From Psychrobacillus lasiicapitis (GTDB lineage: Bacteria; Bacillota; Bacilli; Bacillales_A; Planococcaceae), in the NCBI RefSeq assembly GCF_006861795.1, contig NZ_VDGH01000009.1, positions 62,001 through 126,000 on the forward strand: a stretch of DNA of 64,000 nucleotides. Reading direction: 5' to 3'. The notes below the pieces were generated by a model. That model had not been told where the DNA came from. It made no database searches and saw only the letters and a list, made by a program, of their open reading frames with translations. The translations under genes and the position numbers were made by a program. Below are positions 3,881 to 28,427 of the stretch, piece after piece; positions within the stretch are counted from its first letter, which is position 1, and the number at the start of each line of letters is the position of its first letter.

Positions 3881-4085
3881 TTGGTTGCTTTCGTGAATTA
3901 ATTGGTTTCCCTTAGCCATTTTGTAACTTATAAAAGCAAATAATTCCAATACAATATTCATAAAAGCTATCTCTGCATGAGTTTACTTGTTAATTGGAGA
4001 GCTTGGTTGCTTTCTCGCACATTTGGTTGCTTTCGCCATAAAATTGATTGCTCTCGTAAGAGAATTGGTTTCCCTTAGCCATTAA
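3881..4085. repeat. Phased micro-repeat array A (TTGGTTGCTTTCG word)
   Basis: Intergenic array of the word TTGGTTGCTTTCG and its variant TTGGTTTCCCTTAGCC. Starts are at 3881, 3902, 4003, 4023, 4044 and 4065, so neighbours are spaced 20-21 bp. The variant word occurs twice (3902, 4065), each time as the last unit of a run, with CTTAGCCATT preserved. The units do not form an open reading frame and no large palindrome is seen. This takes up most of the 437-bp gap between the thiolase and the LysM gene. Confidence 0.75.
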
Positions 4086-4279
4086 TTTCTATTAAATTTC
4101 TACATTCTTATATTGGAATTGTTTCAAAAATAAAGCCATTTTTCAAAACAGATTTTAATTGTTTTGGAAGGTGGCTTCTTTTTATTTAATTAGAATGTTT
4201 GTTTTTCGAAGTTTTTGGGCAAGACTGTGACGAATTAAAATGTTTAACAGTTTACTTGCAAAGGAGGAGTTTTATTTTG

Positions 4280-5059
4280 ATGTTTAGAACATTTTTGTTC
4301 ATTGTGCTTATCCTATTTTCAATGAATACAGTAGCACAAGCGGCGGAACTTATGCCTATAGGCGTAGGAGGAGACAATATTGAAGTTTCCTATAATTTTC
4401 CGATAGAAAATGATGTACCATTTCAATATGCTTTAGATCTTGGATTAGTTAATTATCCACCAGTGGATCTGCAAGTAGAGCCTGAAGTATATAAGGTGAT
4501 GCAAGGAGATAATTTATTTCGAATTGCACTAAAGCATAATATTCCATTAGAGTCCCTAGTTGAGTGGAATAATTTGGCGGGAGATAAAATACATCCAGGT
4601 GATGAATTGATTGTGAGCGGGGGTGGTGTGGAAGCGGAAACCGTTCATCAGAAGCCAGATAGGAAGGTGGCGGCTGTTTCCACCCCAATTGTTACACCCC
4701 CACCAGTCGAAAAAACGGAAGCAGTAGAAGTAAAGGAAGAAAAAGTAGAAGTGGCAGAGGAACAAGTAGTGGATGAAATGACTGTTACAGCAACTGCTTA
4801 TACGGCATACTGTCCAGGCTGTTCCGGAACGACTGCATATGGAATTGACTTACGTTCCAATCCAAACCAGAAAGTGATTGCTGTAGATCCAAGAATTATT
4901 CCACTCGGCACAAAAGTATGGGTGGAAGGTTACGGAGAGGCTATTGCCGGTGATACAGGTGGAGCTATTAAAGGTCACAAAATTGATGTATTCATTCCAT
5001 CTTATGATAGTGCGATGGAATGGGGAGTTAAAAAGGTCAAACTGAAAGTACTCAATTAA
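4280..5059 (+). CDS. Secreted LysM and 3D-domain cell wall protein (YocH-like)
   Basis: 259 residues from the ATG at 4280, preferred over the upstream in-frame ATG at 4199 because AAGGAGGAG (4261-4269) sits at the right distance. Residues 1-22 form a signal peptide ending AQA. One LysM motif (YKVMQGDNLFRIALKHNI...) at about 63-107 binds peptidoglycan. A linker rich in E, K and V (about 120-165) leads to a C-terminal 3D domain (about 170-259) with AVDPRIIPLGTKVWV, GDTGGAIKGHKIDVF and the aspartates typical of MltA-like double-psi barrels. The family contains resuscitation-promoting or muralytic proteins such as B. subtilis YocH. Activity is inferred from family. Confidence 0.85.
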   Translation: MFRTFLFIVLILFSMNTVAQAAELMPIGVGGDNIEVSYNFPIENDVPFQYALDLGLVNYPPVDLQVEPEVYKVMQGDNLFRIALKHNIPLESLVEWNNLAGDKIHPGDELIVSGGGVEAETVHQKPDRKVAAVSTPIVTPPPVEKTEAVEVKEEKVEVAEEQVVDEMTVTATAYTAYCPGCSGTTAYGIDLRSNPNQKVIAVDPRIIPLGTKVWVEGYGEAIAGDTGGAIKGHKIDVFIPSYDSAMEWGVKKVKLKVLN

Positions 5060-5065
5060 TAAGGA

Positions 5066-5098
5066 AAACCTATGCAGAGTGTTTGCATAGGTTTTTTT
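5066..5098 (+). terminator. Terminator of the LysM-3D gene
   Basis: Stem AAACCTATGCA/TGCATAGGTTT followed by a run of seven T. Confidence 0.85.
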
Positions 5099-5112
5099 AT
5101 ATGGAAATTGCA

Positions 5113-5141
5113 TTGAGAATATTTCAATTATAGTGCATAAT
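5113..5141 (+). promoter_or_regulatory. Sigma-A-like promoter of purU
   Basis: TTGAGA (5113-5118), 17-bp spacer, CATAAT (5136-5141). It lies upstream of the start at 5178 and would overlap the alternative start at 5133, which supports the later start. Confidence 0.5.
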
Positions 5142-5177
5142 GAGACAATTAATGAGTTAGTGAGGAGATGTACTTTA

Positions 5178-6086
5178 ATGTCTATTAATACGGAAGTCCA
5201 AGTAAGGTCGAAGCAACAACATAAACAATTAGAAAACAGAGGCTGTTTGTTAGTGAAATGTCCAGATAAACCAGGGATAGTCTCTATTCTATCTACATTT
5301 TTACATAATCATGAATCTAATATTATTGAGTCAAGCCAATATTCAAGCGATCCAGAGAATGGAATCTTTTTTATACGAATCGAGTACCATCGTGAGAATT
5401 TGCTAAAAGAGAAGAAAAGAATGGAAAATGATTTCCGCGAGATTGCGGCAGCACATAATATGGATTACAACTTTTCCTATCGGATTGAGCGAAAACGATC
5501 TGCGATATTTGTCTCCAAAGAAATCCACTGCTTGATGGAGCTATTGTGGGAATGGCAAAATGGAGATTTAGATACTGATATCGTCGTAGTTATTAGTAAT
5601 CACGAAGATGCCCGTCCAATCGTAGAGTCGTTAGGAATACCGTTTCATTACATACCGGCAAACAAAGATATTCGGAAACAGGTGGAAGAAGAACAAATAC
5701 GCTTGTTGGACAAGTATGAAGTCGACTTGTTAATTCTAGCACGGTATATGCAAATTCTAACTCCAGACTTTGTTCGCCACTTTGAGAGCCGAATCATTAA
5801 TATTCACCATTCCTTTTTGCCTGCGTTTATAGGAGCGGGACCATATGAGCGTGCATACGAGCGTGGTGTAAAGTTAATCGGTGCGACATCGCATTATGTA
5901 ACGAATAATCTTGATGAAGGACCGATAATCGAGCAGGACGTTGAACGAGTTGATCATCGAGATGATGTCATCAATTTAAAGAAAATTGGACGTCAAATTG
6001 AGCGACGGGTACTTGCTAAAGCGGTGAAATGGCATTTAGAGAATCGCATCATTGTAGAGGGAAATAAAACGATTGTGTTTCATTAA
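5178..6086 (+). CDS. purU: Formyltetrahydrofolate deformylase
   Basis: 302 residues from the ATG at 5178 (Shine-Dalgarno GAGGAG at 5162-5167), close to the ~300 residues of Bacillus PurU. An earlier in-frame ATG at 5133 would add 15 residues with no ribosome site. The N-terminal ACT domain begins GCLLVKCPDKPGIVSILSTF, and the C-terminal formyltransferase-fold domain has the catalytic region INIHHSFLPAFIGAGPYERA and the later SHYVTNNLDEGPIIEQD. It hydrolyses 10-formyl-THF to THF and formate, balancing one-carbon pools and supplying formate for PurT in purine synthesis. It is monocistronic, with its own promoter and terminator. Confidence 0.92.
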   Translation: MSINTEVQVRSKQQHKQLENRGCLLVKCPDKPGIVSILSTFLHNHESNIIESSQYSSDPENGIFFIRIEYHRENLLKEKKRMENDFREIAAAHNMDYNFSYRIERKRSAIFVSKEIHCLMELLWEWQNGDLDTDIVVVISNHEDARPIVESLGIPFHYIPANKDIRKQVEEEQIRLLDKYEVDLLILARYMQILTPDFVRHFESRIINIHHSFLPAFIGAGPYERAYERGVKLIGATSHYVTNNLDEGPIIEQDVERVDHRDDVINLKKIGRQIERRVLAKAVKWHLENRIIVEGNKTIVFH

Positions 6087-6091
6087 TAAAT

Positions 6092-6140
6092 AAATCCAGG
6101 TTGGAGACGATTTTTATACGTTTCTAATCTGGATTTTTTT
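6092..6140 (+). terminator. Terminator of purU
   Basis: AAATCCAGGTTGGAGACG pairs, with several G-U pairs, to CGTTTCTAATCTGGATTT, followed by T7. Confidence 0.8.
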
Positions 6141-6425
6141 GTACTATAAGAAGTTATCAAATAGATGGAATTTCACTTAACAACAAAGTATGGCATTTTT
6201 CAAGGAATAATGCGTCTAAGCAATGTCTGCTAGTATTTCCTCTGAGTAAGAAATGTGAGAAATCAATCATCACAATCACATTGCATACTAATTGATGATC
6301 TATCTATCTTTCATACTAGTCTAGTTTCAAAATGGTCACTACTTCCATAAATCAGCATTTATACATATGAAAAAGGTCTAAAACTGTCTTGGCTCTAACT
6401 TTTTTTTGAATATTTTTCTTGGAAA

Positions 6426-6533
6426 ATGTGTTTAGTTGGAACTTTGAGGGGGTTAGTTGGAAATTTCACTGGTTTAGTTGGAATTTTGTTAAGTTTAGTT
6501 GGAATAATCGTGTGGTTAGTTGTAAAAGGATAA
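6426..6533 (+). repeat. Phased micro-repeat array B (TTAGTTGGAA word, exact 21-bp period)
   Basis: Five copies of TTAGTTGGAA (last copy TTAGTTGTAA) start at 6432, 6453, 6474, 6495 and 6516, an exact 21-bp period, with unrelated 11-bp fillers. Because 21 is a multiple of three, one frame stays open: ATG at 6426 to TAA at 6531 would give a 35-residue hydrophobic peptide with the heptad LVGxxxx. There is no good Shine-Dalgarno (only TTGGAAA). The rest of the 787-bp gap between purU and the phospho-operon (6141-6425 and 6534-6800) shows no gene. Confidence 0.75.
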
Positions 6534-6804
6534 CTTTCCCACAAAAAAGCGATTAGTCTCAAGTGAACGATTGCTACTAGTTATGAACTTTTCCTATTTC
6601 TTCATTTTTCTCAGATTCATCAAGTGGTCTCTTCTGGTTGAAGACAGCAAATTTCTCTTCGTTCTTTTCATTATATTCATCGCTCACTCACTCACGTACA
6701 CAGTAGACACCGTATACCACGCATATTCCCCCTAGGCACAAACTAACCTTAACAAAAGCTCAACAATTTTTACTTAACATTATTAACTCCTCCATACCCG
6801 CTTA

Positions 6805-6859
6805 ATGTTTGTTTTGTAACATGATTCTTGTAAGCAAATTAAAACAAACATAAACAAAC
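6805..6859. promoter_or_regulatory. Candidate operator of the phospho-operon
   Basis: Perfect 11-bp inverted repeat ATGTTTGTTTT (6805-6815) and AAAACAAACAT (6841-6851), with a further half-site ATAAACAAAC (6850-6859). It ends just before the Shine-Dalgarno (CGGAGG, 6859-6864) of the first gene. The DeoR-type repressor encoded in the operon is the obvious candidate ligand. Confidence 0.5.
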
Positions 6860-6873
6860 GGAGGTTTTCGGCA

Positions 6874-7962
6874 ATGTCTTTTAAGCGTGTTTGGAAGAAA
6901 AGCATAATCGGTGTATTAGCAGTATCTATTTTGGCGGCTTGTTCGGATAGTTCAGCTAAAACAACCGTTAATGGCAACGATTTATCGGTAGATGAAATTA
7001 TAACAAAAGCAAAAGAAGAAGGTACAGTAAACTCGGTAGGTATGCCGGATACTTGGGCGAACTGGGTGGAAACTTGGGAAGAGCTTGGAGCGGAGTATAA
7101 CTTAAACCATGCAGATACCGATATGTCGAGTGCAGAGGAACTTGCAAAGTTTGAAGCGGAGAAGGAAGATGCAACGGCTGATATCGGAGACGTTGGTATT
7201 GCATTTGGACCAATCGCAAAAGACAAAGGTTTAACATTAGCCTATAAAACTTCTTACTGGGATGATATTCCGGATTGGGCTAAAGATGAAGAAGGTCACT
7301 GGGTTGTTGGATATACAGGAACCATGTCCTTTTTAACAGATACAAACAATGTGAAAAATCCGCCTAAATCATGGGACGATATTAAAAATGGTGATTTTAA
7401 TGTAAGTATTGGAGATGCCTTAACTGCAAACCAAGCACAGTTTGCTATTTTAGCAGCAGCTATGGCTTATGGTGGAGATGAGAAGAATTTACAACCTGGA
7501 ATTGATTTCTTCGCAGAGCTTGCTAAACAAGGTCGACTACAAGGGGACGCAACAGTTGCGAACCTGGAAAAAGGGGAAATTGATGTAGCAATTATGTGGG
7601 ATTTCAATTCGTTAGGCTATCGCAACCAAATTGATGAGTCACGTTTTGAAGTAGTAATTCCAGAAGAAGGCTCTGTTATTTCTGGTTATGCAACGGTTAT
7701 TAATAAATACGCAAAAAATCCACATGCTGCAATGTTAACACGTGAGTATATATTATCGGACGCTGGACAAGAAAATTTGGCAAAAGGATACGCACGTCCA
7801 ATTCGTGAGAACGTAGAGCTTTCTGCAGAAGTAGAAGATTTGTTATTGCCGGCGGAAATGTATGAAAATGCACAACCAGTTGGCGATCAAAAAGCATGGG
7901 AAGAAACAACAAAACAAATTCCACAAATGTACCAAGAACAGGTATTAATCCATGTCAAATAA
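6874..7962 (+). CDS. ABC transporter substrate-binding lipoprotein (organophosphorus/phosphonate-type import)
   Basis: 362 residues. A lipoprotein signal peptide with lipobox LAAC (C23) anchors it outside the membrane. The body resembles family 1 extracellular solute-binding proteins of the Fe3+/polyamine/2-aminoethylphosphonate group. It is the first gene of a seven-gene operon and overlaps the next gene by 11 bp. The start is fixed by CGGAGG at 6859-6864. The ligand is not evident from sequence; two phosphoesterases in the operon suggest a phosphate ester or phosphonate. Thiamine, spermidine or iron cannot be excluded for the binding protein alone. Confidence 0.8.
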   Translation: MSFKRVWKKSIIGVLAVSILAACSDSSAKTTVNGNDLSVDEIITKAKEEGTVNSVGMPDTWANWVETWEELGAEYNLNHADTDMSSAEELAKFEAEKEDATADIGDVGIAFGPIAKDKGLTLAYKTSYWDDIPDWAKDEEGHWVVGYTGTMSFLTDTNNVKNPPKSWDDIKNGDFNVSIGDALTANQAQFAILAAAMAYGGDEKNLQPGIDFFAELAKQGRLQGDATVANLEKGEIDVAIMWDFNSLGYRNQIDESRFEVVIPEEGSVISGYATVINKYAKNPHAAMLTREYILSDAGQENLAKGYARPIRENVELSAEVEDLLLPAEMYENAQPVGDQKAWEETTKQIPQMYQEQVLIHVK

Positions 7963-8788
7963 TCGTGTAGTTCTTATAGTGATAGACGCACTTAGATACG
8001 ATACGGCATGTACGCATATGGGTTTTATGCAACATTTAGTGGAAAGAGGTGCTGCTGCGCGTTATGAAGTGCGCTCAGAAGTACCCTCCTTATCACGCCC
8101 ATTATATGAGACGATTTTAACCGGGACACCTCCAATTATCCATGGTGTCACAAGTAATGCCGTGGTACGTTTATCCAATCAAACAAGCTTATTCCATCTA
8201 GCGCAAGAGAGTGGGAAAACTACTGCTGCTGCTGCTTACTACTGGGTAAGTGAACTCTATAATAGCGCTCCTTTTAATCATTTTGCGGATCGTATTCAAT
8301 TGGACACTGATCACCCGATTGAAAATGGCTTATTCTATTTTGAAGATCATTATCCAGATAGTCATTTATTTGCAGAAGCAGCTTGGTTAATGGCTGAAAA
8401 GCAGCCGGACTTTTTATATATTCATCCAATGAATGTGGATGATGATGGACATAAGTTTACGGCAGATTCCAAGGAATATCGTAATCGTGTATTAGCGGTA
8501 GATGGGATTCTTTCGTTGTTCATCCCTAATTGTTTGGAGCAAGGATACGATGTTATTGTGACGGCGGATCACGGCATGACGAGTGATGGAAACCATGGTG
8601 GTAATACGATAGAAGATCGTCATGTCCCAATGTTTGTATTATCGAAGCAAGTGAAGCCAGGTATTAAGGAAGGCATTGTTTCACAATTGCAGGTGGCGCC
8701 TTTGGTTTGTCAGTTACTAGAAATAGAGCGTTCAGAAGAAATGGTTCCTCTTCTTCTGAACGGAGTACGTACAAAAAAAGAGGCCTAG
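7952..8788 (+). CDS. Cytoplasmic alkaline phosphatase superfamily phosphodiesterase/phosphonohydrolase
   Basis: 278 residues, no signal peptide. Metal ligands of the alkaline phosphatase/nucleotide pyrophosphatase superfamily can be placed: D12 (VIDAL), the nucleophile region VPSLSRP with probable nucleophile S48, D163-D165 and H167 (NVDDDGHK), D206-H207 (TADHGM) and H224 (DRHVP). The family includes type I phosphodiesterases and phosphonoacetate hydrolase. The gene starts inside the last codons of the binding-protein gene, so the two are coupled. It probably releases phosphate, or a phosphate-containing part, from the imported compound. The precise reaction is unknown. Confidence 0.75.
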   Translation: MSNNRVVLIVIDALRYDTACTHMGFMQHLVERGAAARYEVRSEVPSLSRPLYETILTGTPPIIHGVTSNAVVRLSNQTSLFHLAQESGKTTAAAAYYWVSELYNSAPFNHFADRIQLDTDHPIENGLFYFEDHYPDSHLFAEAAWLMAEKQPDFLYIHPMNVDDDGHKFTADSKEYRNRVLAVDGILSLFIPNCLEQGYDVIVTADHGMTSDGNHGGNTIEDRHVPMFVLSKQVKPGIKEGIVSQLQVAPLVCQLLEIERSEEMVPLLLNGVRTKKEA

Positions 8789-8824
8789 TGCCTCTTTTCT
8801 ATTTAACTTCTTTCATCAGAAGTT
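8776..8824 (+). terminator. Twin hairpins between phosphatase and permease genes
   Basis: AAAAGAGGC/GCCTCTTTT straddles the phosphatase stop codon, and AACTTCT/AGAAGTT (8805-8811, 8818-8824) follows. Only a short T-run follows the first, so partial termination or mRNA stabilisation favouring the binding protein is more likely than full termination. Confidence 0.5.
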
Positions 8825-8843
8825 TGTGAACTCCTATAAATGA

Positions 8844-8941
8844 AGTTAAAGCCTCCGGCGGATGTCACAGATTTTTTAAAGGAATTTCTCGAGTTAGCTA
8901 GAAAAAAATCTGGACGCAAATTCGCCGAGTCGAATTTGATA
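8844..8941. repeat. Foldable intergenic element (likely dispersed palindromic repeat)
   Basis: Nested complementarity: CAGATTTTTT pairs with AAAAAATCTG, TTTCT with AGAAA inside it, and GGCG..GTC with GAC..CGCC outside it. It is inserted between two operon genes, just ahead of the permease Shine-Dalgarno. Its form suggests a dispersed genomic repeat, but no second copy is in the window. Confidence 0.5.
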
Positions 8942-8961
8942 AAGGAAGTAGTGATTTTGTT

Positions 8962-9795
8962 TTGACTTCTAAAAAGCAATTGTTCGTTTGGATATTGCCG
9001 TTTTTAGTCCTGATTTTGTTGTTTTTCATCGTACCATTGCTATATATGGTCATTTCAAGCTTTAGTAATGGCCATGGGTTTACGCTTGATCATTATCAAG
9101 AGGTATTAACGAGTAGTTATATTTTACAAGGATTTAAAAATAGCATTACTTTGTCTGCGGTTTCAGCAGTTATTGCACTCATTGTAACGTTGTTTGCGGT
9201 ATATGCGATGATGCGTTTTTCAGAACCTGTGCGCGAACGTATTTTAATGATTTCAAATTTGACTTCGAATTTCTCGGGTATACCACTGGCGTTTGCATTT
9301 ATCGTTTTATTAGGGAACAGCGGTTTGTTTACACTGTTATTCGAAAAATGGGGAATCGATTCGTTAACCTCGTTCTCTTTATATAGTTGGGGTGGATTAC
9401 TGCTCGTGTATATTTACTTCCAATTACCACTTTCCCTGATGCTTTTGTATCCTATCTACTACGGAATCCAGCAGCAATGGAAGGATGCAGCCGCATTGCT
9501 AGGGGCATCGACGTTTCATTTTTGGCGTAAAATTGGTGTTCCGATTATGCTTCCAGGGATTGTTGGAACGTTTAGTGTGCTATTTGCGAATGCGATGGGA
9601 GCCTATGCATCGGCTTACGCGCTGACAGGAAGTAATTATAATCTAGTTGCTATTCGAATTGGAGCATTAATAAGCGGTGATATTTTTGCGCAGCCAGAGC
9701 TAGCAAGCGCCATTGCAGTGTTACTTGGTGTAACAATGATTATTGCAATGCTATTAAGTGAGTGGAGTATTAAGAAAACAAGGAGGAATTTGTAG
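8962..9795 (+). CDS. ABC transporter permease subunit 1
   Basis: 277 residues with about six hydrophobic segments; the first (WILPFLVLILLFFIVPLLYM) starts at residue 10. The BPD_transp_1 coupling motif (EAA loop) is recognisable as DAAALLGASTFHFWRKIGVP. The start is a TTG at 8962, the only in-frame initiator after the Shine-Dalgarno AAGGAAG (8942-8948). It forms the membrane channel with the next gene product, which it overlaps by one base. The upstream folded element separates it from the phosphatase gene, so expression may be lower than that of the binding protein. Confidence 0.85.
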   Translation: MTSKKQLFVWILPFLVLILLFFIVPLLYMVISSFSNGHGFTLDHYQEVLTSSYILQGFKNSITLSAVSAVIALIVTLFAVYAMMRFSEPVRERILMISNLTSNFSGIPLAFAFIVLLGNSGLFTLLFEKWGIDSLTSFSLYSWGGLLLVYIYFQLPLSLMLLYPIYYGIQQQWKDAAALLGASTFHFWRKIGVPIMLPGIVGTFSVLFANAMGAYASAYALTGSNYNLVAIRIGALISGDIFAQPELASAIAVLLGVTMIIAMLLSEWSIKKTRRNL

Positions 9796-10580
9796 TGAAA
9801 AAGAAAGGCTTTGTAGATCTATTCTTTGTCTTCCTTCTTTTATATTTATTCCTCCCGATTTTAGCGACGATGTTTTATGCATTTGCAACTAATTGGAACA
9901 AAACAGTGTTACCAGAAGGACTAACATTTAAATGGATTGCTACATTGTTTCAGGATAGTCGTTTTATCGAGGCATTTGGACGATCCGTATTACTTTCTGG
10001 AGGAGCGGTGCTACTTGCTTTGCTTTTCATCGTTCCAGCAATTTTTGTTATCGTGCTTTATTTTCCAAAGTATGAGAAATGGATTCAAGCTGCAGTTGTG
10101 ATGGTATATGCATTTCCAGGAGTAATACTAGCAGTGGGATTGATCCGCGCGTATGCGCATATTGGAGTCCCGATGATAGCAGCGGTTTTAGGAGCATATG
10201 TGATCAGTATTTTACCTTATATTTATCAAGGAACGCGCAATAGTCTCCGCAACGTGAATGCAAGACAGTTATTGGATGCTGCTGAGTTGTCGGGTGCATC
10301 GAAAGCACAAGCTTTTTCAAAAGTGTTACTGCCAGCTGTGTACCCAGGACTGTTTGCTGGCGCGTTATTATCATTTTCCGTGTTATTCGGTGAATTTGTT
10401 TTGATCAACCTAGTAGTTGGTTCTCGATTTGAAACGGTTCAAATCTACTTGATGAAAAAGTTGAGTACGAGCGGCCATATTGCAAGTAGTGTTGTGTTTG
10501 TTTACTTAGTACTGATGGGTATTTTAACGTTTATCATATCCATGTTAACGAAACGATCAAAAGGGGCACAAAAAGTATGA
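9795..10580 (+). CDS. ABC transporter permease subunit 2
   Basis: 261 residues with six predicted membrane segments and the EAA motif DAAELSGASKAQAFSKVLLP. GTG start at 9795, placed by AGGAGG at 9781-9786; its first base is the last base of the preceding stop codon. It pairs with permease subunit 1 as a heterodimeric channel of the Fe3+/phosphonate/polyamine type. The stop codon overlaps the ATPase start (ATGA). Confidence 0.85.
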   Translation: MKKKGFVDLFFVFLLLYLFLPILATMFYAFATNWNKTVLPEGLTFKWIATLFQDSRFIEAFGRSVLLSGGAVLLALLFIVPAIFVIVLYFPKYEKWIQAAVVMVYAFPGVILAVGLIRAYAHIGVPMIAAVLGAYVISILPYIYQGTRNSLRNVNARQLLDAAELSGASKAQAFSKVLLPAVYPGLFAGALLSFSVLFGEFVLINLVVGSRFETVQIYLMKKLSTSGHIASSVVFVYLVLMGILTFIISMLTKRSKGAQKV

Positions 10581-13358: not shown

Positions 13359-13364
13359 AAAACA

Positions 13365-13399: not shown

Positions 13400-13711
13400 A
13401 TCCCGCATTAACGGGCAGTAAGACTCCCACTTCAAGATTGAAGAAAAGCAAAAAGATAAGTGGGAGATCAACTGCCGGCATGCGCCCGATGTAATGATCC
13501 CAGACTAAGTACGCAACATCGTGTTGCTCCTGCGCAAAGCTCGTCGCAAAATAAAAGAGCGTTTGCAACGTCTGTGTGACCCTCATCGTGTGGGACACAA
13601 CTAACAATCAGTGGGGATGACGGGGACTAAAAGTGCGACGTCCATGTCGCAACGTCCCCACTAGCACTTCCTGTGCGTCGAAAAACCTCCACTGATGGAA
13701 GTTTCACTTTA
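13398..13711. repeat. Structured dispersed repeat, full copy 1 (~315 bp)
   Basis: Nearly the same sequence recurs at 38398-38711 in the same orientation, and a fragment of its left end at 35825-35870. Conserved stems include CCCG/CGGG, CTCCCACTT/AAGTGGGAG, GCAACA/TGTTGC, GCAAA/TTTGC, GCGAC/GTCGC, AGTGGGGA/TCCCCACT and ATCAGTGG/CCACTGAT. No ORF is present. Such a structure suggests a non-autonomous mobile element or a structural RNA, possibly an omega-RNA-like relic read from the minus strand; this is inference. The right end (..TTTCACTTTA) supplies the stop codon of the convergent acyltransferase gene. Confidence 0.75.
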
Positions 13712-17476: not shown

Positions 17477-19189
17477 ATGAGTTTCAAAATGTCAAGACAA
17501 CAGTACGCTTCCATGTACGGTCCGACAACCGGTGATGCTGTACGTCTAGCGGATACTGATCTTTTTATCGAAATTGAAAAAGATTATACGACTTATGGTG
17601 AAGAAGTTGTATTCGGTGGAGGAAAAGTAATTCGTGATGGAATGGGGAGTCATCCGCTTGCAACACGTGATGAGAATATTCCCGATGTAGTTATTACGAA
17701 TGTTATTGTTTTAGACTATACAGGAATTTACAAAGCGGATGTAGCGATTCGTGATGGTAAAATTGTTGCGATAGGGAAAGCGGGCAATCCATTATTAATG
17801 GATAATGTAGATATCGTCATTGGTGCATCTACAGAAATAATTGCTGGTGAACATAAAATTTTGACAGCTGGCGGTATTGATACACATGTGCATTTCATCA
17901 ACCCGGCACAAATTGAGACAGCACTCACAGCTGGACTTACGACATTAATCGGAGGCGGCACTGGTCCTGCTGAAGGTTCAAAAGCAACGACGGTAACTCC
18001 AGGAGAGTGGCATATGCATCGTATGCTGGAAGCTGCAGAAGATATGCCAATCAATGTTGGCTTTTTAGGAAAAGGTCATGCGGCTGCCGAAGAACCACTT
18101 GCTGAGCAGATTCGTGCAGGAGCAATTGGCTTAAAAGTACATGAAGACTGGGGCGCAACTTACTCTTCTATCGACATGTCGTTAAAAGTTGCAGACGAAT
18201 ACGATGTGCAAGTAGCGATTCATACAGATACACTAAACGAAGGTGGATTTGTTGAAAATACAGTCTCCGCTTTCAAGGATCGTGTTATTCATACGTTTCA
18301 TACAGAAGGAGCGGGTGGTGGACATGCACCTGATATTATTAAAGTAGCGAGTCAGATGAATGTACTACCGGCATCTACTAACCCAACACTTCCTTTTACT
18401 GTAAATACAATAGATGAGCATTTAGATATGCTCATGGTTTGTCATCATTTAAGCCCTGATATTCCAGAGGATGTAGCTTTTGCAGATTCACGTATTCGTG
18501 CGGAAACAATAGCTGCTGAAGATATTCTACAAGATTTGGGAGTATTTAGTATAACTAGTTCCGACTCTCAAGCAATGGGACGTATCGGAGAGGTACTGAT
18601 TCGTACATGGCAAACAGCGGACAAAATGAAAAAGCAACGCGGAAAGTTTGAAAATGATAAAGGAATCGGCGACAACAATCGTGTAAAGAGATACGTTGCA
18701 AAATATACGATCAATCCTGCAATCGCACACGGAATTTCCGACTATGTAGGATCAATTGAAGTAGGGAAATTTGCAGATTTAGTTCTATGGGAGCCTAGAT
18801 TTTTTGGCGTAAAACCAAGCATGATTCTTAAAGGTGGAATTGCGGTACAAAGCTTAATGGGAGATGCAAACGCGTCTATTCCAACTCCACAACCGATTCT
18901 TTATCGACCTATGTACGGAACGATGGGGAAAGCGAAATATAAAGCATCGATTACATTTGTTTCGACAGCTGCATATGAAGCGGGTGTACACGAAAAACTT
19001 GGCTTACAAAAAACAGTTCTTCCTGTACATGGTATTCGTAATTTAACGAAAAAAGATATGAAACTAAATGGAGAAACGCCTGAAATTGACGTTGATCCAG
19101 AAACATATGAAGTACGTGTAAATGGAGAGCTTCTAACTTGTGACCCAGTGGACACTGTTCCAATGGGACAACGATATTTCTTATTCTGA
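17477..19189 (+). CDS. ureC: Urease subunit alpha (catalytic)
   Basis: 570 residues, full length. All catalytic groups are present: nickel ligands H137 and H139 (THVHF), carbamylated K220 (GLKVHEDWG), H249, H275 and D363 (SSDSQAMGR), substrate-binding H222, and the flap residues C322-H323 (VCHHLSP). Numbering coincides with Sporosarcina-type urease. It hydrolyses urea to ammonia and carbamate. The start at 17477 is 4 bp after the ureB stop, with the Shine-Dalgarno GGGGG inside the end of ureB. Confidence 0.98.
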
Positions 19190-19198
19190 GGTGACGAA

Positions 19199-20333: not shown

Positions 20334-20354
20334 TGAAAGGAAGATTATTTATAT

Positions 20355-20966
20355 ATGGAACCAATTAAAATAGGAATAGGTGGACCAGTAGGTGCTGGGA
20401 AAACAATGTTAGTAGAAAAATTAACTCGTCATATGGCAGATGAAATCAGCATGGCTGCTATTACAAATGATATTTATACAAAAGAAGATGCTAAATTTCT
20501 AATGAATAATGGGGTTTTACCAGAGGACCGTATTATCGGAGTGGAAACAGGAGGGTGTCCACATACTGCAATCCGTGAGGACACGTCGATGAACTCTGCT
20601 GCAATTGAAGATTTGAAAAAGCGTCACCCTGATCTAGATTTGATCTTTGTTGAAAGTGGTGGAGATAACTTAGCAGCGACATTTAGTCCAGAGCTTGTCG
20701 ACTTCTCTATTTATATTATTGATGTTGCGCAAGGGGAGAAAATCCCACGTAAAGGTGGACAAGGGATGATTAAATCTGATTTGTTCATTATCAATAAAAC
20801 TGACCTTGCTCCATATGTAGGTGCAAACTTAGATGTGATGGCTTCGGATACAAGAGTGTTTCGTGGAAATAAACCGTTCATCTTTACAAATCTAAAAGAT
20901 AATACTGGATTAGAGGAAGTAATGGATTGGATTCGTAAAAATGTGTTACTTGCAGGATTGAAGTAA
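20355..20966 (+). CDS. ureG: Urease accessory GTPase UreG
   Basis: 203 residues. P-loop GGPVGAGKT at residues 9-17, the metal-binding CPH motif ([11 protein letters not shown]) and the SIMIBI guanine-specificity motif NKTDLA. It hydrolyses GTP to insert nickel into UreC. ATG at 20355 with AAAGGAAG upstream; only one base separates its stop from the ureD start. Confidence 0.97.
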
Positions 20967-20967
20967 G

Positions 20968-21792: not shown

Positions 21793-21802
21793 ATTACTAT
21801 AA

Positions 21803-21846
21803 AAGTCCGATAAAGGGAGTTACCGCTCCTTATTATCGGTCTTTTT
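21803..21846 (+). terminator. Terminator of the urease operon
   Basis: CCGATAA..GGGAG/GCTCC..TTATCGG hairpin followed by TCTTTTT. Confidence 0.85.
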
Positions 21847-21919
21847 GCATTTCGTTTGTATTAATCGTGCTTTTTGGGAAAAGATAGAACGGATTATACA
21901 AATTAGGAGTGAATGGATT

Positions 21920-22330
21920 ATGTTGCAGCTTAAAACAGATTTAGAAGGAAAGCAAGCTTATTTTGGACAAGTGCGAAACAGCATTCAAGGTTTGGGATAT
22001 AGTATTGGAGGAAACTGGGATTATCACAAAGGAAGCTTTGATAATGTCTTATGGCGCGAAGCAGGAGAGACAATCTATTTAAGACTACCATTCGAGGTGC
22101 TTGAAGGCGACTTAGATCATCAAGAAGCATATATAAGATTTCAAACTCCTTATGTGATAAAGCATGTAGTGAATGCTGGCTTAGATCGGGATGAAAATTC
22201 ATTATTAACTTCTACAGGGTTCAATCAGTTCCAGGATCCTCTCGATAAAGACGGTAAAATTGAAGATAAAAATAGATGGATGCATGCTGGAGAACGGGCT
22301 GTAGAACAAATTGTACGTCTAGTGCACTAA
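21920..22330 (+). CDS. YugN-like family protein
   Basis: 136 residues from the ATG at 21920 (AGGAG at 21905-21909); the open frame extends upstream to 21845 without a ribosome site there. The compact soluble protein with GNWDYHKGSFDNVLW and the C-terminal NRWMHAGERAVEQI resembles the Bacillus YugN-like family. Function unknown. It is monocistronic, between two terminators. Confidence 0.75.
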   Translation: MLQLKTDLEGKQAYFGQVRNSIQGLGYSIGGNWDYHKGSFDNVLWREAGETIYLRLPFEVLEGDLDHQEAYIRFQTPYVIKHVVNAGLDRDENSLLTSTGFNQFQDPLDKDGKIEDKNRWMHAGERAVEQIVRLVH

Positions 22331-22336
22331 AGAAAG

Positions 22337-22372
22337 TAAAATCATTTCGCCATTTCGCGAAGTGATTTTTTT
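22337..22372 (+). terminator. Terminator of the YugN-like gene
   Basis: AAAATCATTTCGC pairs to GCGAAGTGATTTT, then T-run. Confidence 0.8.
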
Positions 22373-22391
22373 ATATTCAAAGGCAGTCTAC

Positions 22392-22420
22392 TTACATTCC
22401 TTCTGCTATTTCTTTATAAT
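22392..22420 (+). promoter_or_regulatory. Sigma-A-like promoter of the tsaE operon
   Basis: TTACAT (22392-22397), 17-bp spacer, TATAAT (22415-22420), 38 bp before the tsaE ATG. Confidence 0.6.
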
Positions 22421-22458
22421 AGAAGCAAATAGACAAGTATTTGAAAGGATAGCGACCG

Positions 22459-22911
22459 ATGATATACGAGCAAATAATTAATTCGGAGCAAGAAACAGAG
22501 AAACTTGCGTACCAGCTTGCTGATAAGCTAGAGCCTAGTGATGTGCTCACTTTAGAGGGAGATTTAGGAGCCGGTAAGACAACTTTTACAAAAAGTATAG
22601 CGAAGGGTCTAGGAATTACAAGAACTGTCAATAGCCCTACATTTACGATATTAAAGCAATATGAAGGTCGTGTTCCTTTGAATCACCTCGATGTTTATCG
22701 TCTAGCGGACAGTGATGAGGATTTAGGATGGGACGAATTGTTTTACGGAGATGCAGTGAGCATTATCGAATGGGCTCATTTGATAAAAGAAGACTTGCCA
22801 CCGGAGCGTTTGGCGATACAAATACAAAGGTTGGAAGATGATAAGCGAAAATTTACATTTACTCCAATTGGACAAAGATATGAACGATTATGTGAGGAGC
22901 TTTTTGAATGA
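22459..22911 (+). CDS. tsaE: tRNA threonylcarbamoyladenosine biosynthesis ATPase TsaE
   Basis: 150 residues. Walker A GDLGAGKTT at 34-42, NSPTFTILKQY and HLDVYRL motifs are typical. It is the ATPase of the TsaBDE complex that makes t6A37 on ANN-decoding tRNAs. Shine-Dalgarno GAAAGGA precedes the ATG. Its stop overlaps the tsaB start (ATGA). Same order as B. subtilis ydiB-ydiC-ydiD-ydiE. Confidence 0.96.
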   Translation: MIYEQIINSEQETEKLAYQLADKLEPSDVLTLEGDLGAGKTTFTKSIAKGLGITRTVNSPTFTILKQYEGRVPLNHLDVYRLADSDEDLGWDELFYGDAVSIIEWAHLIKEDLPPERLAIQIQRLEDDKRKFTFTPIGQRYERLCEELFE

Positions 22912-23597
22912 TTTGGTTAGGAATAGATACATCCCATACACCACTTGCGGTAGCTGTCGTGGAGGATGACCGAGTACTTGCTTCGTACCAGTCATCCCTT
23001 AAAATTACGCATTCTATTGGAGCGATGCCTGCAATTGAAGCGTTATTAAAAAAAGCAGACATAAAGCCAGGCGAAATTGATGCAATTGCTGTTGCGATAG
23101 GACCGGGTTCCTATACAGGTGTGCGAATCGGAGTAACGATAGGAAAAACTCTTGCTTGGACATTGAAGAAACCGATTTTTTCCGTGTCGAGTTTGCAAGT
23201 GTTAGCTAGTAATGCACCGTACTTCCCTGGAATTGTGTGTGCCATAATGGATGCTAGACGTGGCAATGTATTCGCTGGTATTTATACGAACGGGGAAGTT
23301 GTGAAAGAAGCCCATATGCCACTTGTAGAATTATTAAAAACAGTGGATGAAATGGGACAGCCGGTTTTATTTGTTGGAATGGATGTAAGTATCCATTGGG
23401 AGCAGATTAAAGAAGTACTTGGAGATCGAGTTGAGCGCGCGAGTGCAGCATTCTCTTTACCAAATGCCGCTGTCTTAGTTGAGCTTGCCAAAAAACTACA
23501 ACCAACAGAAGTACATACGACTGTGCCTGAGTACTTGCGCATAACAGAGGCGGAAGCAAACTGGATGAAAGAGCAGAAGAAAAATGATAACAAATGA
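22908..23597 (+). CDS. tsaB: tRNA threonylcarbamoyladenosine biosynthesis protein TsaB
   Basis: 229 residues, ASKHA fold with the N-terminal LGIDTSHTPLAVAVV phosphate-binding strand and AIGPGSYTGVRIGVTIGKTLAW. It is a scaffold partner of TsaD in t6A synthesis, lacking the TsaD metal site. Overlaps tsaE by 4 bp and rimI by 14 bp. Confidence 0.95.
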   Translation: MIWLGIDTSHTPLAVAVVEDDRVLASYQSSLKITHSIGAMPAIEALLKKADIKPGEIDAIAVAIGPGSYTGVRIGVTIGKTLAWTLKKPIFSVSSLQVLASNAPYFPGIVCAIMDARRGNVFAGIYTNGEVVKEAHMPLVELLKTVDEMGQPVLFVGMDVSIHWEQIKEVLGDRVERASAAFSLPNAAVLVELAKKLQPTEVHTTVPEYLRITEAEANWMKEQKKNDNK

Positions 23598-24045
23598 AAT
23601 AATTACGTATCGAAAAATGACATTGGACGATATCGATCAAATACTTTTAATAGAAGAAGAAGCTTTTGCGACACCATGGACAAGAGAAGCATTTGAACAT
23701 GAAATGACGACGAATTTGTATTCGCATTATATTATAGCAGAGACGGAAACAAAAGAAATCGTTGGATACTGTGGTATGTGGATTGTCATGGATGAAAGTC
23801 ATATTACAAATGTAGCAGTCTCGGAGCGTATGCGCGGGAAGAAAATTGGAGAGGGCTTAATGCGCGAAGCAATTCGTGTAGTACTCGAGCAAGACGTTGT
23901 ACTAATGACACTAGAAGTGCGTGTGACAAACGATATCGCCAAAAATCTATATTACAAGCTAGGTTTCCAAGATGGCGGTATACGAAAAAATTATTATACA
24001 GATACACAAGAGGATGCTCTTGTCATGTGGGTGGAGTTTAAATGA
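23584..24045 (+). CDS. rimI: Ribosomal protein S18-alanine N-acetyltransferase
   Basis: 153 residues, GNAT fold. The acetyl-CoA-binding motif A is [20 protein letters not shown], followed by [19 protein letters not shown]. Assigned to RimI on similarity and on its fixed position between tsaB and tsaD in Bacillales. It overlaps both neighbours, so the four genes are one translational unit. Confidence 0.92.
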
Positions 24046-25061
24046 TAAAAGATCAATATATATTAGGAATAGAAACAAGTTGTGATGAAACGGCGGCATC
24101 CATTGTGAAAAACGGTCAAGAAATCATTTCAAATGTTGTCGCTTCGCAAATCGAAAGTCATAAACGTTTCGGAGGAGTAGTACCAGAAATTGCTTCAAGA
24201 CATCATGTCGAGCAAATAACGATGGTCATCGAAGAAGCGCTGAAGCAAGCTAATATGTTACCTGAAGATTTGGATGCAGTAGCAGTAACAGAAGGTCCAG
24301 GTTTAGTAGGTGCACTTTTGATAGGTATAAACGCTGCAAAAGCATTTGCCTTTGCTAACAGCCTTCCACTAGTAGGTGTCCACCATATTGCTGGTCATAT
24401 ATATGCAAACGCACTTGTTCAACCGATGGAGTTTCCGCTTTTAGCATTAGTCGTGTCGGGTGGTCATACAGAATTAGTATTGATGAAAGAAGACGGTCAG
24501 TTCGAACTAATTGGGGAAACAAGAGACGATGCAGCTGGTGAAGCGTATGATAAGGTAGCGCGAGTATTAAACTTGCCTTATCCGGGTGGTCCACATATTG
24601 ACCGACTTGCAAGTGAAAGTGACAGTGCGGTGCCTTTCCCAAGAGCATGGTTAGAAGAAGGGTCTTATGACTTTAGCTTTAGTGGATTAAAGTCCGCAGT
24701 AATCAATTACCAACATAATGCAGAGCAACGCGGAGAAGAGATTAATCCTAATCATCTAGCAGCGGGCTTTCAAGAAAGTGTGGTTGAAGTGCTGACGGCA
24801 AAAACATTAAGAGCAGCCCGAGAATTTAAGGTGAAACAAGTAATTGCTGCAGGTGGAGTGGCTGCGAACAAAGGACTTCGCAAATCTCTGGAAGAAACGT
24901 TTGCAAAAGAAAACATACCATTCTATGTACCTCCAATTTCATTGTGCACGGATAATGCAGCTATGATTGCTGCTGCAGGAAATTCTAAGTTTTCTGCTGG
25001 AAAGACAAGTGATATGTCGATGAATGGTCGTCCCGGTATGGAATTAAATAGTTGGAAATAA
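24042..25061 (+). CDS. tsaD: tRNA threonylcarbamoyladenosine biosynthesis protein TsaD (Gcp)
   Basis: 339 residues. ASKHA catalytic subunit with metal-binding HxxxH at H115 and H119 ([11 protein letters not shown]), [10 protein letters not shown], and the C-terminal CTDNAAMIA. It transfers threonylcarbamoyl from threonylcarbamoyl-AMP to A37 of tRNA. Overlaps rimI by ATGA. A terminator and a DnaA-box cluster follow. Confidence 0.97.
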
Positions 25062-25064
25062 ACG

Positions 25065-25101
25065 AAATCCTCTTTTCTTCGACAAGAAAAGGGGATTTTT
25101 T
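25065..25101 (+). terminator. Terminator of the tsaE-tsaD operon
   Basis: AATCCTCTTTTCTT/AAGAAAAGGGGATT with CGAC loop, then T6. Confidence 0.88.
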
Positions 25102-25141
25102 AACAGGTATTATTCAACTTGTCAATAGAGAACATTCGTAC

Positions 25142-25312
25142 TTATGCACAGTTTGGGGACAACTTGTGCATAAGTTTGGTATTTTCTATATATTGTGTCT
25201 CATTTACACACAATTATGTGGAAAAGTAACTTTGAAATCTGTGGATAATGTGTATAAGTCTGTTGATATGTTGGTGTTACTAGTTTTTTCTTGTGAATAA
25301 AATTGTGGAAAA
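25142..25312. promoter_or_regulatory. DnaA-box cluster between tsaD and ydiF
   Basis: One perfect DnaA box TGTGGATAA (25240-25248) plus 1-mismatch boxes TTATGCACA (25142-25150), TGTGCATAA (25165-25173), TGTGGAAAA (25217-25225 and 25304-25312), TGTGTATAA (25249-25257, directly abutting the perfect box) and TGTGAATAA (25292-25300). The first two form a perfect 10-bp inverted repeat CTTATGCACA/TGTGCATAAG. A DnaA-binding cluster is known next to gcp (tsaD) in B. subtilis, so position and content agree. Confidence 0.72.
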
Positions 25313-25349
25313 TGAGTTCGAGAAAAAAAGTACTTGACCAACATATATA

Positions 25350-25490
25350 GACAAAATACGACAAGTGATTTTACAGTAAATGGTTGACCGTGACAAATGA
25401 GGAGACAAACGAAAGAAAAAAATAGTTGTATGCGACAAACTTGCGGGGGACACGACAAATGATCAGCCGAACGTAAAAAAGCCGACAAAT
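25350..25490. repeat. Phased micro-repeat array C (GACAAA word)
   Basis: GACAAA/GACAAG words start at 25350, 25360, 25392, 25404, 25434, 25454 and 25484: offsets 0, 10, 42, 54, 84, 104 and 134, all near multiples of 10.5 bp. Context is usually CGACAAAT or AGACAAAC. It lies between the DnaA-box cluster and the ydiF terminator; no frame is open through it. Confidence 0.6.
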
Positions 25491-25504
25491 CGCCACTACC
25501 CATA

Positions 25505-25536
25505 CAAAAAAAGAGACTCCCTTTATAGGAATCCCT
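25505..25536 (-). terminator. Terminator of ydiF
   Basis: Minus strand AGGGATTCC/GGAGTCTCT (with G-U pairs) followed by T7. Confidence 0.7.
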
Positions 25537-27470
25537 TAGTTTGAAGCTATTTCTTCTAATAGTTCTTGTAACTCTAGCCATTCATTCGACAATTCATCCT
25601 GTTTCTCTTTCCAACCATCTAACTCTACTTGTAATTGTTGCACTGCTTCATGGTCTTGGAATATAGCTGGATCGCAAAGCTTTTCTTCAATAGAAGCAAT
25701 CTCCAAATCCACTGTTGGAATTTGTGCTTCTAGCTCTTCTAGTTGTCGACGTAATTGACGTTCTTTCTTCTTAGCTTCTTTATCGATGGTGGAAGTATTC
25801 GCCTTCACAACAACTGTTTTCTCAACAACAGCGTTTTCTTGTGCAAGCTCTTCTAGTTCTTCTTTCTTTTCTAGGTAATAATCATAATCTCCTAAGTAAA
25901 GGGTCGCTTGATCACTAGATAGCTCAATCACTTTTGTAGCTATTCGATTAATAAAGTATCGATCATGTGATACAAAAATAATCGTTCCTGGGAAATCGAG
26001 CAATGCATTTTCAAGTACCTCTTTGCTATCTAAATCCAAATGGTTGGTCGGCTCATCGAGTACAAGTGTATTTGCTTTTAATAGCATTAATTTTGCTAGT
26101 GCAAGTCTTGCTTTTTCTCCGCCGGATAAGGTAGCAATCGTTTTTTGGACATCATCCCCGCTAAAGAGGAAGCGTCCCAATACGTTGCGTACATCTTTTT
26201 CATTCATCAGCGGCCATTCATCCCATAGTTCTTGCAATGCGGATTTATTGCCCGTAAGTGCTGCTTGTTCTTGATCATAATAACCAAATTGGACGTTTGT
26301 CCCATATTGAATTTTGCCGGCATTATGATCTAATTGCTTCATCAGTGTTTTTAGTAGGGTGGATTTTCCAACACCATTTGGTCCAACGAGTGCAATTCGA
26401 TCTTGCTTGTAAACGGAAAAAGAGATATTTGAGGAGACGGTTTTGTTTGGATAACCAACAGAAACTTCCTCTAATCGCAAGACATCATTCCCACTTGGAC
26501 GGTCGATTGTAAATCCAAAATTAGCCGATTTTTCGTCGCCATCCGGAGCATCCATCCAGTCTGTTTTTTCAAGAACTTTACGTCTCGATTGTGCCATTTT
26601 TGTCGTAGAAGCACGTGCTAGATTTTTACTCACAAAATCTTCTAATTTCGCTTTTTCTTCCTGTTGTTTCTCGTATTTCTTTTTGTCGAGCTCATAGTTT
26701 TTCGCTTTTTCATCTAAATAAGCACTATAATTTCCAACGTATCTAGTTACATTATGACGAGAAACCTCATAAACAAAGTTAACGACTTGATCTAAAAAGT
26801 ATCGATCATGCGAAACGATTAAGATGGCGCCGTTGTAATTTTTTAAATAGTTTTCTAAAAAGCTAAGTGTTTGTATATCTAAATGGTTCGTTGGCTCATC
26901 TAGGATAAGCAGGTCAGGCTTGCTAAGTAACATTTTGGCTAGCGCCAGTCTCGTTTTTTGCCCACCAGATAATGCTTGTACCGGTTTATCATAGTCTTCT
27001 GGGAAGAACTGCATACCATGTAGTATGGAACGGATATCTGATTCGAATCGGTAACCCCCAGCTTCATTGAAAGCGAGCTGTAATTCATCATAGGCTGCAG
27101 TTACACGAGCATAGGCTTCTGGATCCTCATATACGGAAGGATCAGCCATCTGCGCCTCTAGTGAACGAAGCTCTTTTTCGGAGTCGATCAAATGACTGAA
27201 AATAGATTTCATCTCATCCCAGATAGAGAGCTTTGATTCGAGCCCGGCATGTTGCTCTAAATAGCCTAAGCGAACAGTCTTGGGCATAATTATATCGCCG
27301 GAATCATAGGACATTTCTCCAGCTATTATTTTAAGTAAAGTAGACTTTCCTGCACCATTTCGGCCGACAAGTGCGACACGATCTCGGTCTTGAACTTCCA
27401 ACTTTACATTTGTTAATATATCTTCACCATTAAAGGATTTAGTTACTTGATTGACTTGTAAAACAATCAC
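25536..27470 (-). CDS. ydiF: ABC-F family ATPase (YdiF-type)
   Basis: 644 residues from a GTG at 27470; an upstream in-frame GTG at 27482 is part of the likely Shine-Dalgarno GAGGTG, and Bacillus YdiF starts at the same place (..LQVNQ). Two ABC cassettes: Walker A GRNGAGKST and GPNGVGKST, signatures LSGGQKTR and LSGGEKAR, and the ABC-F linker between them (about residues 240-320, rich in K, E and Q). No membrane segments. A C-terminal coiled coil (about 545-640) is present. ABC-F proteins act on the ribosome as translation factors; some give antibiotic protection, but synteny favours the housekeeping YdiF type. Confidence 0.9.
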   Translation of the reverse strand: MIVLQVNQVTKSFNGEDILTNVKLEVQDRDRVALVGRNGAGKSTLLKIIAGEMSYDSGDIIMPKTVRLGYLEQHAGLESKLSIWDEMKSIFSHLIDSEKELRSLEAQMADPSVYEDPEAYARVTAAYDELQLAFNEAGGYRFESDIRSILHGMQFFPEDYDKPVQALSGGQKTRLALAKMLLSKPDLLILDEPTNHLDIQTLSFLENYLKNYNGAILIVSHDRYFLDQVVNFVYEVSRHNVTRYVGNYSAYLDEKAKNYELDKKKYEKQQEEKAKLEDFVSKNLARASTTKMAQSRRKVLEKTDWMDAPDGDEKSANFGFTIDRPSGNDVLRLEEVSVGYPNKTVSSNISFSVYKQDRIALVGPNGVGKSTLLKTLMKQLDHNAGKIQYGTNVQFGYYDQEQAALTGNKSALQELWDEWPLMNEKDVRNVLGRFLFSGDDVQKTIATLSGGEKARLALAKLMLLKANTLVLDEPTNHLDLDSKEVLENALLDFPGTIIFVSHDRYFINRIATKVIELSSDQATLYLGDYDYYLEKKEELEELAQENAVVEKTVVVKANTSTIDKEAKKKERQLRRQLEELEAQIPTVDLEIASIEEKLCDPAIFQDHEAVQQLQVELDGWKEKQDELSNEWLELQELLEEIASN

Positions 27471-27535
27471 GATAATTCGCACCTCAATTCTATCCTAAGT
27501 GTAATGGATAGGGGCGAGCGTTGCAACGCCCTAGC

Positions 27536-27564
27536 TTTACAATAAGGGAAATGTCTAGTAATAT
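27536..27564 (+). promoter_or_regulatory. Sigma-A-like promoter of rex
   Basis: TTTACA (27536-27541), 17-bp spacer, TAATAT (27559-27564). Confidence 0.6.
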
Positions 27565-27601
27565 AAAAACGATTTGTAACAATGAAATAGGAGGGTTTTT
27601 C

Positions 27602-28246
27602 ATGAGACCTGAACTTCCAAAAATTCCTCAAGCAACAACGAAAAGACTTCCGTTATATTATAGATTTCTACAAAGCTTTCATAATGCAGGGCATAAACGT
27701 GTTTCTTCCCAAGAGCTAAGTGAAGCTATGAAAATAGATTCTGCTACAATTCGAAGAGACTTCTCGCATTTCGGTGCACTCGGCAAAAAAGGATATGGCT
27801 ACGATGTTCCGACGCTTCTAGAATTTTTCCGAAAAACACTCGATCAAGACGAAGCGGCACATGTAGCGTTAATAGGTGTCGGTAGCTTAGGAACTGCATT
27901 CCTTAAATATAATTTTCAGAAAAATCATAATACAAAAATTGTCGTTGCGTTTGACACGAAAGCACCAGTAGAAGGAATGATGAAAAGTGAAATTCCTGTT
28001 TTTCATCCAAGCGTGATGGAAACGAAGCTTGCCGAGTATGGAATTGAGTTAGTGATATGTACTGTTCCAAGTCGCTCTGCACAGGAAGTTGCAGACCGTT
28101 TGGCGAAAACTAAAATAAAAGGGATTTTAAACTTTACACCAGTGAGATTAACTGTCCCTGATACAATTCGCGTACATACGATTGATTTGTCTGTTGAGGT
28201 ACAAACACTAATTTATTTAATACGAAATGAGCATATTGAAGATTAA
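27602..28246 (+). CDS. rex: Redox-sensing transcriptional repressor Rex
   Basis: 214 residues from the ATG at 27602 (AGGAGG at 27590-27595); the upstream open frame to 27521 overlaps the promoter. The N-terminal winged helix carries [20 protein letters not shown] with the [13 protein letters not shown] extension. The Rossmann domain has the NAD(H) motif GVGSLGTA. It senses NADH/NAD+ and represses fermentation and respiration genes. Synteny (next to ydiF, upstream of groE) agrees with B. subtilis. Confidence 0.96.
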
Positions 28247-28249
28247 GAG

Positions 28250-28279
28250 AAAAGCCTTCCAGCTGATGGAAGGCTTTTT
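28250..28279 (+). terminator. Terminator of rex
   Basis: AAAAGCCTTCCA/TGGAAGGCTTTT with GCTGA loop, then T-run. Confidence 0.9.
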
Positions 28280-28313
28280 GTATGGGAAAAGGAGTGTGTG
28301 AATAATACCATTT

Positions 28314-28427
28314 GAGCAAAAGAGTGCGGTATCCACGCAATGAAAGGTCCTTCGAGCAATACAAAGGATTATGCAAGCGTAAAGAGAGAGAAAACGAGCA
28401 ATCCGAAGCAATATACGCGCAATGAAG
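28314..28427. repeat. Phased micro-repeat array D (GAGCAAT / CGCAATGAA words)
   Basis: GCAA cores at 28316, 28337, 28356, 28373, 28398, 28408 and 28419, mostly inside CGAGCAAT or CGCAATGAA. Spacing is looser than in array B (21, 19, 17, 25, 10, 11). It lies between the convergent terminators of rex and ydiL and has no coding potential. Confidence 0.5.

Follow-up and report, generated by a model that had tools for sequence, protein, structure and literature searches.

The stretch analysed here, a window of 64,000 nucleotides from Psychrobacillus lasiicapitis (NCBI RefSeq assembly GCF_006861795.1, contig NZ_VDGH01000009.1, positions 62,001 to 126,000 of the forward strand), contains four intergenic arrays, A to D, in which a short word is repeated in phase between variable filler. 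A first-pass annotation made from the sequence alone had described these arrays, and all four are present. A hairpin resembling an intrinsic terminator, with a T-rich run (3846..3870, plus strand, recognised by eye), lies immediately 5' of array A. The array itself consists of two parts on the plus strand, the first with two units, TTGGTTGCTTTCG and TTGGTTTCCCTTAGCC, at a step of 21 bp (3881..3922), and the second with four units at steps of 20, 21 and 21 bp, ending in the family end variant TTGGTTTCCCTTAGCCAT (4003..4085). Array B (6431..6536, plus strand) comprises five units resembling TTTAGTTGGAA at a pitch of exactly 21 bp, and the detector gave no terminator within 45 bp to either side of it. 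In the convergent gap 3' of tsaD, array C (25350..25490, plus strand) holds six loosely phased copies of GACAAA at successive steps of 42, 12, 30, 20 and 30 bp. Array D (28314..28437, plus strand) is enclosed by two terminator-like hairpins found by eye, one of the intrinsic type 3' of rex and 5' of the array (28250..28279, plus strand), the other 3' of the array (28450..28483, no strand assigned). Its words, GAGCAAA, ACGCAAT, GAGCAAT, AAGCGTA, GAGCAAT and GCGCAAT, have a pitch of 21 bp with one step of 19; re-reading placed the six starts at 28314, 28335, 28354, 28375, 28396 and 28417.

Judged on the window alone, array B is overwhelming, its phased 6-mer pairs numbering 10 where 1000 shuffles never exceeded 5, and array C is strong yet loosely phased (6 pairs, maximum 3 in 1000 shuffles). 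Array A was not significant (p 0.062 for 5-mers, 0.77 for 6-mers) and array D was unconvincing (p 0.035 and 0.52, respectively). Window statistics being insufficient for A and D, we accepted these two because the dispersed families to which they belong carry them. For D, the orthologous gap of G017, which contains a long array, adds to this.

A 21-bp period and dispersed word families

We searched the window together with 60 stretches of 20 kb, in total 1.264 Mb of the 4.49 Mb genome (28 contigs), including 155 kb of intergenic DNA. Twenty of the 61 stretches were picked around matches to B, and 40 (800 kb) irrespective of matches. Across 602 intergenic segments, identical 8-mer pairs were found 255 times at a distance of 21 bp, against a mean of 5.4 in five Markov resamples, and the excess recurred at 42 bp (186 against 3.8) and 63 bp (71 against 5.0). 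A strict detector, which required four rows with at least seven identical columns, two of them G or C, called 26 arrays with a period of 21 in the intergenic DNA. The same detector called none over 20 shuffles and none at 13 other periods within 15-28, while the remaining periods from 12 to 60 gave 0 to 2 arrays each, but 4 at 42. The spacing, which the annotation had read as near 21 bp or near multiples of 10.5 bp, is a period of 21 bp. Inside open reading frames (ORFs), 12 arrays were called at period 21, against 5, 4, 6 and 12 at periods 18, 24, 27 and 30; part of these period-21 arrays are arrays sitting in spurious ORFs. The 40 stretches chosen regardless of matches contained 12 arrays, corresponding to about 67 per genome if they are evenly spread. 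In 13 B arrays with orthologues in the very close relative G016, 101 of 108 word steps of up to 70 bp were exact multiples of 21, six were one base off and one was further off. The annotation had named a chance frequency of phased words, and a loss of spacing in orthologous gaps, as outcomes that would tell against it. The opposite was found in the sampled part of the genome and in these 13 arrays, and the common design with same-face phasing holds.

Curvature might by itself be what matters, since a step of any kind that recurs every 21 bp will bend DNA. Predicted from wedge angles, the curvature of the 26 arrays did exceed that of shuffles, with a mean z of 0.84, whereas 200 intergenic controls gave 0.00 (p 0.002). 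However, 8 of the 26 arrays were at or below about zero, and exact words are kept and are common to several loci. Curvature alone is a weak explanation, which we consider very improbable.

The annotation held that each array had its own word. All four words proved instead to be dispersed families repeated across genomes, and words private to each gap were rejected as a possibility, since the same words recur at many loci. In the P. lasiicapitis genome, a pair of B units 21 bp apart has 87 copies with up to two mismatches and the A pair 63 copies with up to one, the reversed control giving 0 for both. The C and D pairs have 7 and 6 exact copies (reversed control 1 each), and two further families, ATCTTGCGATTC and TTGGACAATC, are present. 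Other members of the genus differ in the families they hold: the C pair has 87 copies in G011 (control 0) and none in G017, the D pair has 58 copies in G017 (control 5), and G013 carries the A pair 145 times (control 0) and the D pair 56 times (control 1). Among 61 genomes the B pair was found in 16, namely 14 of the 19 of the genus (P. lasiicapitis included), Paenisporosarcina G028 with 20 copies, and one genome of another family with a single match. Three of the genus members hold just one or two B pairs, possibly by chance, and the reversed control gave at most one match everywhere except in one unrelated genome with 11. A pattern scan for B in named genomes returned loci mainly from Psychrobacillus, with some from Paenisporosarcina.

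Arrays were also detected de novo in relatives, at a threshold of 6 columns. Nine sister genomes (380 kb) yielded 8 period-21 arrays, with 3 at the commonest other period, and Paenisporosarcina (80 kb) yielded 3, with 1 at the commonest other period. In 17 genomes of other genera (705 kb) there were 4, all in G019 and G027, which represent two further genera; here the commonest other period also reached 4 (period 46, long periods being hit more easily by chance), so that single hits need care. The G027 word was found in 13 of 121 genomes of the family, with a reversed control of 1 in two genomes and 0 elsewhere. These comprised four of the 11 genomes in the genus of G027 (with 40, 6, 20 and 6 places), five of the 11 in the genus of G030, and four scattered genomes with one to three places each. 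The CAA/TTG that the annotation saw at the centre of each word fits the families seen in P. lasiicapitis and fails for several words of relatives, among them AATCGGATGGTT, TTTATGTGG and GGGTAGAATAAAT; as a general core it was rejected. One array in G003 has a TGGTTGC unit in phase among GTCTCG units, which suggests that words are able to drift one into another. In G017, contigs C4, C21, C23, C24 and C76 have long CGAGCAT arrays at or near their ends (near base 100-800), and such arrays may therefore break draft assemblies and be undercounted.

Amplification specific to one species, as for the C pair in G011 and the A pair in G013, would fit selfish dispersed repeats, the main rival to protein binding. 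A trans-acting enzyme would recognise the phased words and copy arrays or longer elements into tolerated gaps beside terminators, with no gain to the host. Several A arrays do sit within a longer dispersed repeat having shared flanks (L032, L058, L076, L078, L081, L087 and L089, in some of which AAACTTGTTATTTTAAGAAA stands before the array and TTGGATTTATACA after it), and whole arrays have been duplicated locally (L045, L047, L051). The niche of the arrays also matches the one reported for other bacterial intergenic repeats, between tail-to-tail gene pairs (PMC2718517). If the arrays were dead copies, on the other hand, their words would not need the constraint that we describe below at fixed orthologous loci. 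In flanks of A, B, E and F arrays inspected by eye, neither terminal inverted repeats nor target-site duplications, the hallmarks of a MITE, were noticed. The genome has three matches to the Y1_Tnp domain, at most candidates for a RAYT-type transposase such as accompanies REP elements; the two within the sampled stretches are not next to a strict array, the nearest being about 6 kb away. We regard selfish spread as possible but unlikely. As to a plasmid or phage origin, a distant blastn search with array B (181 bases, a weak query) gave no match among plasmid records, and the B pair had 0 exact matches in IMG/VR; the A pair matches 32 stretches there.

Placement at gene ends, turnover and word constraint

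Placement was scored with simple ORF picks as gene calls and with the 346 gaps measuring 150 bp or more in the P. lasiicapitis genome as background. Of 47 arrays of four families in this genome, 42 could be placed, 16 in convergent, 24 in tandem and 2 in divergent gaps. The background gaps divide into 48, 225 and 73, and the arrays are thus enriched in convergent gaps and depleted in divergent ones. At 80 loci from named species, 72 B arrays comprised 28 convergent, 41 tandem and 3 divergent cases, the background again being that of P. lasiicapitis. A sense terminator precedes 41 of 76 distinct B arrays at no more than 45 bp; 15 of the remaining 35 are followed by an antisense one within the same distance, and 20 show neither, window array B included.

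The 41 arrays behind sense terminators would be in keeping with a role as RNA, in which read-through transcripts carry the arrays and an RNA-binding protein recognises them. Yet an antisense terminator lies within 45 bp downstream of 31 of the 76 B arrays overall, and in the tandem gaps of the named species the two orientations numbered 19 and 22. The lack of an orientation rule fits a DNA element more readily than an RNA. The B arrays of P. lasiicapitis had hinted at a constant orientation relative to transcription, which was not upheld in the named loci. An RNA would not need a spacing of exactly 21, and six of six arrays fold no better than shuffles. Rfam 15 at gathering score gave five matches in the window, none of them in arrays A to D. 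We consider the RNA reading very unlikely, and the least probable of those weighed here.

Orthologous gaps revealed gain, loss and exchange of words. The gap 3' of tsaD could be compared in 19 of 19 genomes of the genus. Array C is present in P. lasiicapitis and G016, arrays of other words occupy the gap in G015 (also called by the detector), G001 and G013, and G010 has two units of another word; none was seen in the 520 bp inspected in the remaining 13. In the rex gap, array D is found in P. lasiicapitis, in G011 (3 units) and in G017 (about ten units within the 320 bp inspected). It was not seen in the other 16 genomes, including G016; a few of these have different neighbour genes. The second hairpin occurs in the array-bearing gaps of P. 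lasiicapitis and G011, and by eye there is none in G016. In the region 28250-28483, array D and the second terminator are flanked by two copies of CTTTTT-N-TATGG where G016 (L263) has one, as if array and terminator had been lost or gained through the T-runs. A formyltetrahydrofolate-deformylase-like gene has an orthologue in 15 of the 19 genomes; behind it stands B in P. lasiicapitis and G016, and other words stand there in G003, G007 and G004, three genomes that also have different neighbours downstream. Since arrays come and go among close species, no single array can be essential.

A cluster of 9-mers resembling DnaA boxes, such as TTATGCACA and TGTGGATAA, also lies 3' of tsaD, at 25130-25320. 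It is alike across the genus gaps compared and differs from G016 by 0 to 2 changes per 100 bp up to 25299. The gcp/ydiF gap of B. subtilis is bound by DnaA (PMC4447404). We read the cluster as lying in the counterpart of that gap, with the facing gene as the putative ydiF counterpart.

Differences in array length between species are largely whole 21-bp units. Such unit-number changes, and the local duplications of arrays, would be expected of neutral minisatellites that arise by replication slippage and are kept alike by recombination. If this were their origin, recombination should even out the filler also, yet within one array the word is retained and each unit has different filler. Slippage and recombination would also leave one period across unrelated words unexplained. 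We therefore regard minisatellites as very improbable.

The difference between word and filler persists between genomes. Alignment of the 13 B arrays with G016 covered 61 units and showed differences at 27 of 608 word sites (4.4%) and 118 of 667 filler sites (17.7%); counting the filler by a marginally different rule had earlier given 121 of 681. When the two best-kept words per array were removed, the counts were 25 of 359 for words and 55 of 394 for filler (p 0.002). Array C behaves similarly, with differences at 2 of 42 word sites and 21 of 114 filler sites. The G016 loci were 30 of 81 matches, and four of the 30 had no partner in the sampled stretches of P. lasiicapitis. Hypermutating filler was rejected as a cause, since filler diverges less than the fourfold sites of tsaD, 43 of 153 of which differ. 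In sequence logos the units resemble binding sites in which some positions are partly free: position 7 of B is G or T, the B word is followed by A or T, and A has pyrimidines.

Candidate protein binding and comparison with known repeats

The exact two-turn pitch, the logos with free positions and the constraint at fixed loci point to proteins bound on one face of double-stranded DNA. Each array would be a row of mostly three to six putative sites, with words of about 10 to 13 bp, spaced exactly two helical turns apart so that the bound proteins could lie on one face and touch, the filler acting as spacer. Each of the several word families in a genome would presumably have its own DNA-binding protein, and different species would have amplified different families. 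The placement of the arrays at the ends of transcription units, avoiding pure promoter gaps, makes an architectural job the likeliest; a bound row might insulate neighbouring units, stop read-through or pin supercoils. The DNA-binding idea of the first-pass annotation remains the best-fitting reading, for a putative binder; an own word per array and CAA/TTG as a general core are not supported. Several observations weigh against same-face binding. Array C is phased only loosely; in the tandem gaps of P. lasiicapitis B favours the sense orientation by 7 to 2, and A by 7 to 5; and arrays appear and vanish between close species, as D does between P. lasiicapitis and G016. In addition, the aligned arrays were located by their words in both genomes, which biases the comparison toward kept words. 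Taken together, we hold it about evenly balanced whether the arrays are same-face rows at gene ends to which DNA-binding proteins specific to each word attach, most likely with an architectural job.

More tentatively, and with somewhat less than even confidence, we propose that Psychrobacillus and other genera of the family share an unrecognised landmark system, in which fast-diversifying proteins would each coat two-turn arrays of their own word at unit ends, and species would swap words at the same gaps. One fixed pitch combined with freely exchanged words separates spacing from sequence, unlike any named repeat that we compared. If proteins read the words, the arrays would offer many pairs of site and reader for studying how DNA-binding specificity evolves, as well as a new way into the question of how bacteria keep adjacent genes insulated. 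Spread by an enzyme would instead make them a mobile repeat of a new kind.

Plasmid iterons and centromere repeats are direct repeats near two helical turns apart that are bound on one face, but they are single loci beside replication or partition genes, whereas the arrays described here occupy dozens of chromosomal loci. CRISPR arrays likewise alternate a constant with a variable part, and their repeats exceed 20 bp; here the constant part is 8 to 13 bp and the variable part similar, hence far shorter, and information content drops outside 10 to 13 bp. Repetitive extragenic palindromic (REP) sequences with bacterial interspersed mosaic elements (BIMEs), and the repeat families of Pseudomonas fluorescens, are likewise dispersed, intergenic, different between strains and biased to tail-to-tail gaps (PMC2817692, PMC2718517). 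Those repeats are palindromic or carry inverted repeats, whereas the arrays repeat words directly every 21 bp, leave the filler free and have no fold. The bias of REP and BIME elements to gene ends is shared by the arrays (16 of the 42 placed arrays lie in convergent gaps, which make up 48 of the 346 background gaps), but a hairpin-forming unit is lacking in all six arrays folded. Binding of gyrase and of IHF is reported for BIMEs (PMC2817692), and the similar niche of these elements and of the Pseudomonas repeats suggests an architectural or insulating task, or else mere tolerance there. The TAACTGA heptamers of Beggiatoaceae, cyanobacteria and Bacteroidetes (PMC4679880) are also short direct intergenic words in sets of two to six copies. 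They are one word, head-to-tail, with sets split only by related 7-mers and lying mostly right before start codons, whereas the arrays use many different words separated by 8 to 13 bp of filler, at a pitch of 21 and at gene ends. No description of such arrays was found in a search of open-licence literature. Of the defining features tested, the arrays lack at least one for each of REP/BIME, CRISPR, heptamer repeats and Rfam families, and measured against that literature we take the array class to be new, although dispersed intergenic repeats are an old notion in the broad sense.

The window has further features outside the arrays. Four matches to Bacillaceae-1 RNA (Rfam RF01690) form two pairs, at 13489-13677 and 38489-38676. 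A match to Rfam 5_ureB_sRNA at 17632-17921 on the minus strand is antisense to a long ORF (17477-19189). Finally, a tandem repeat at 39685-40282 consists of 7.7 copies of a 78-bp unit and is Glu-rich if translated in the unit frame.

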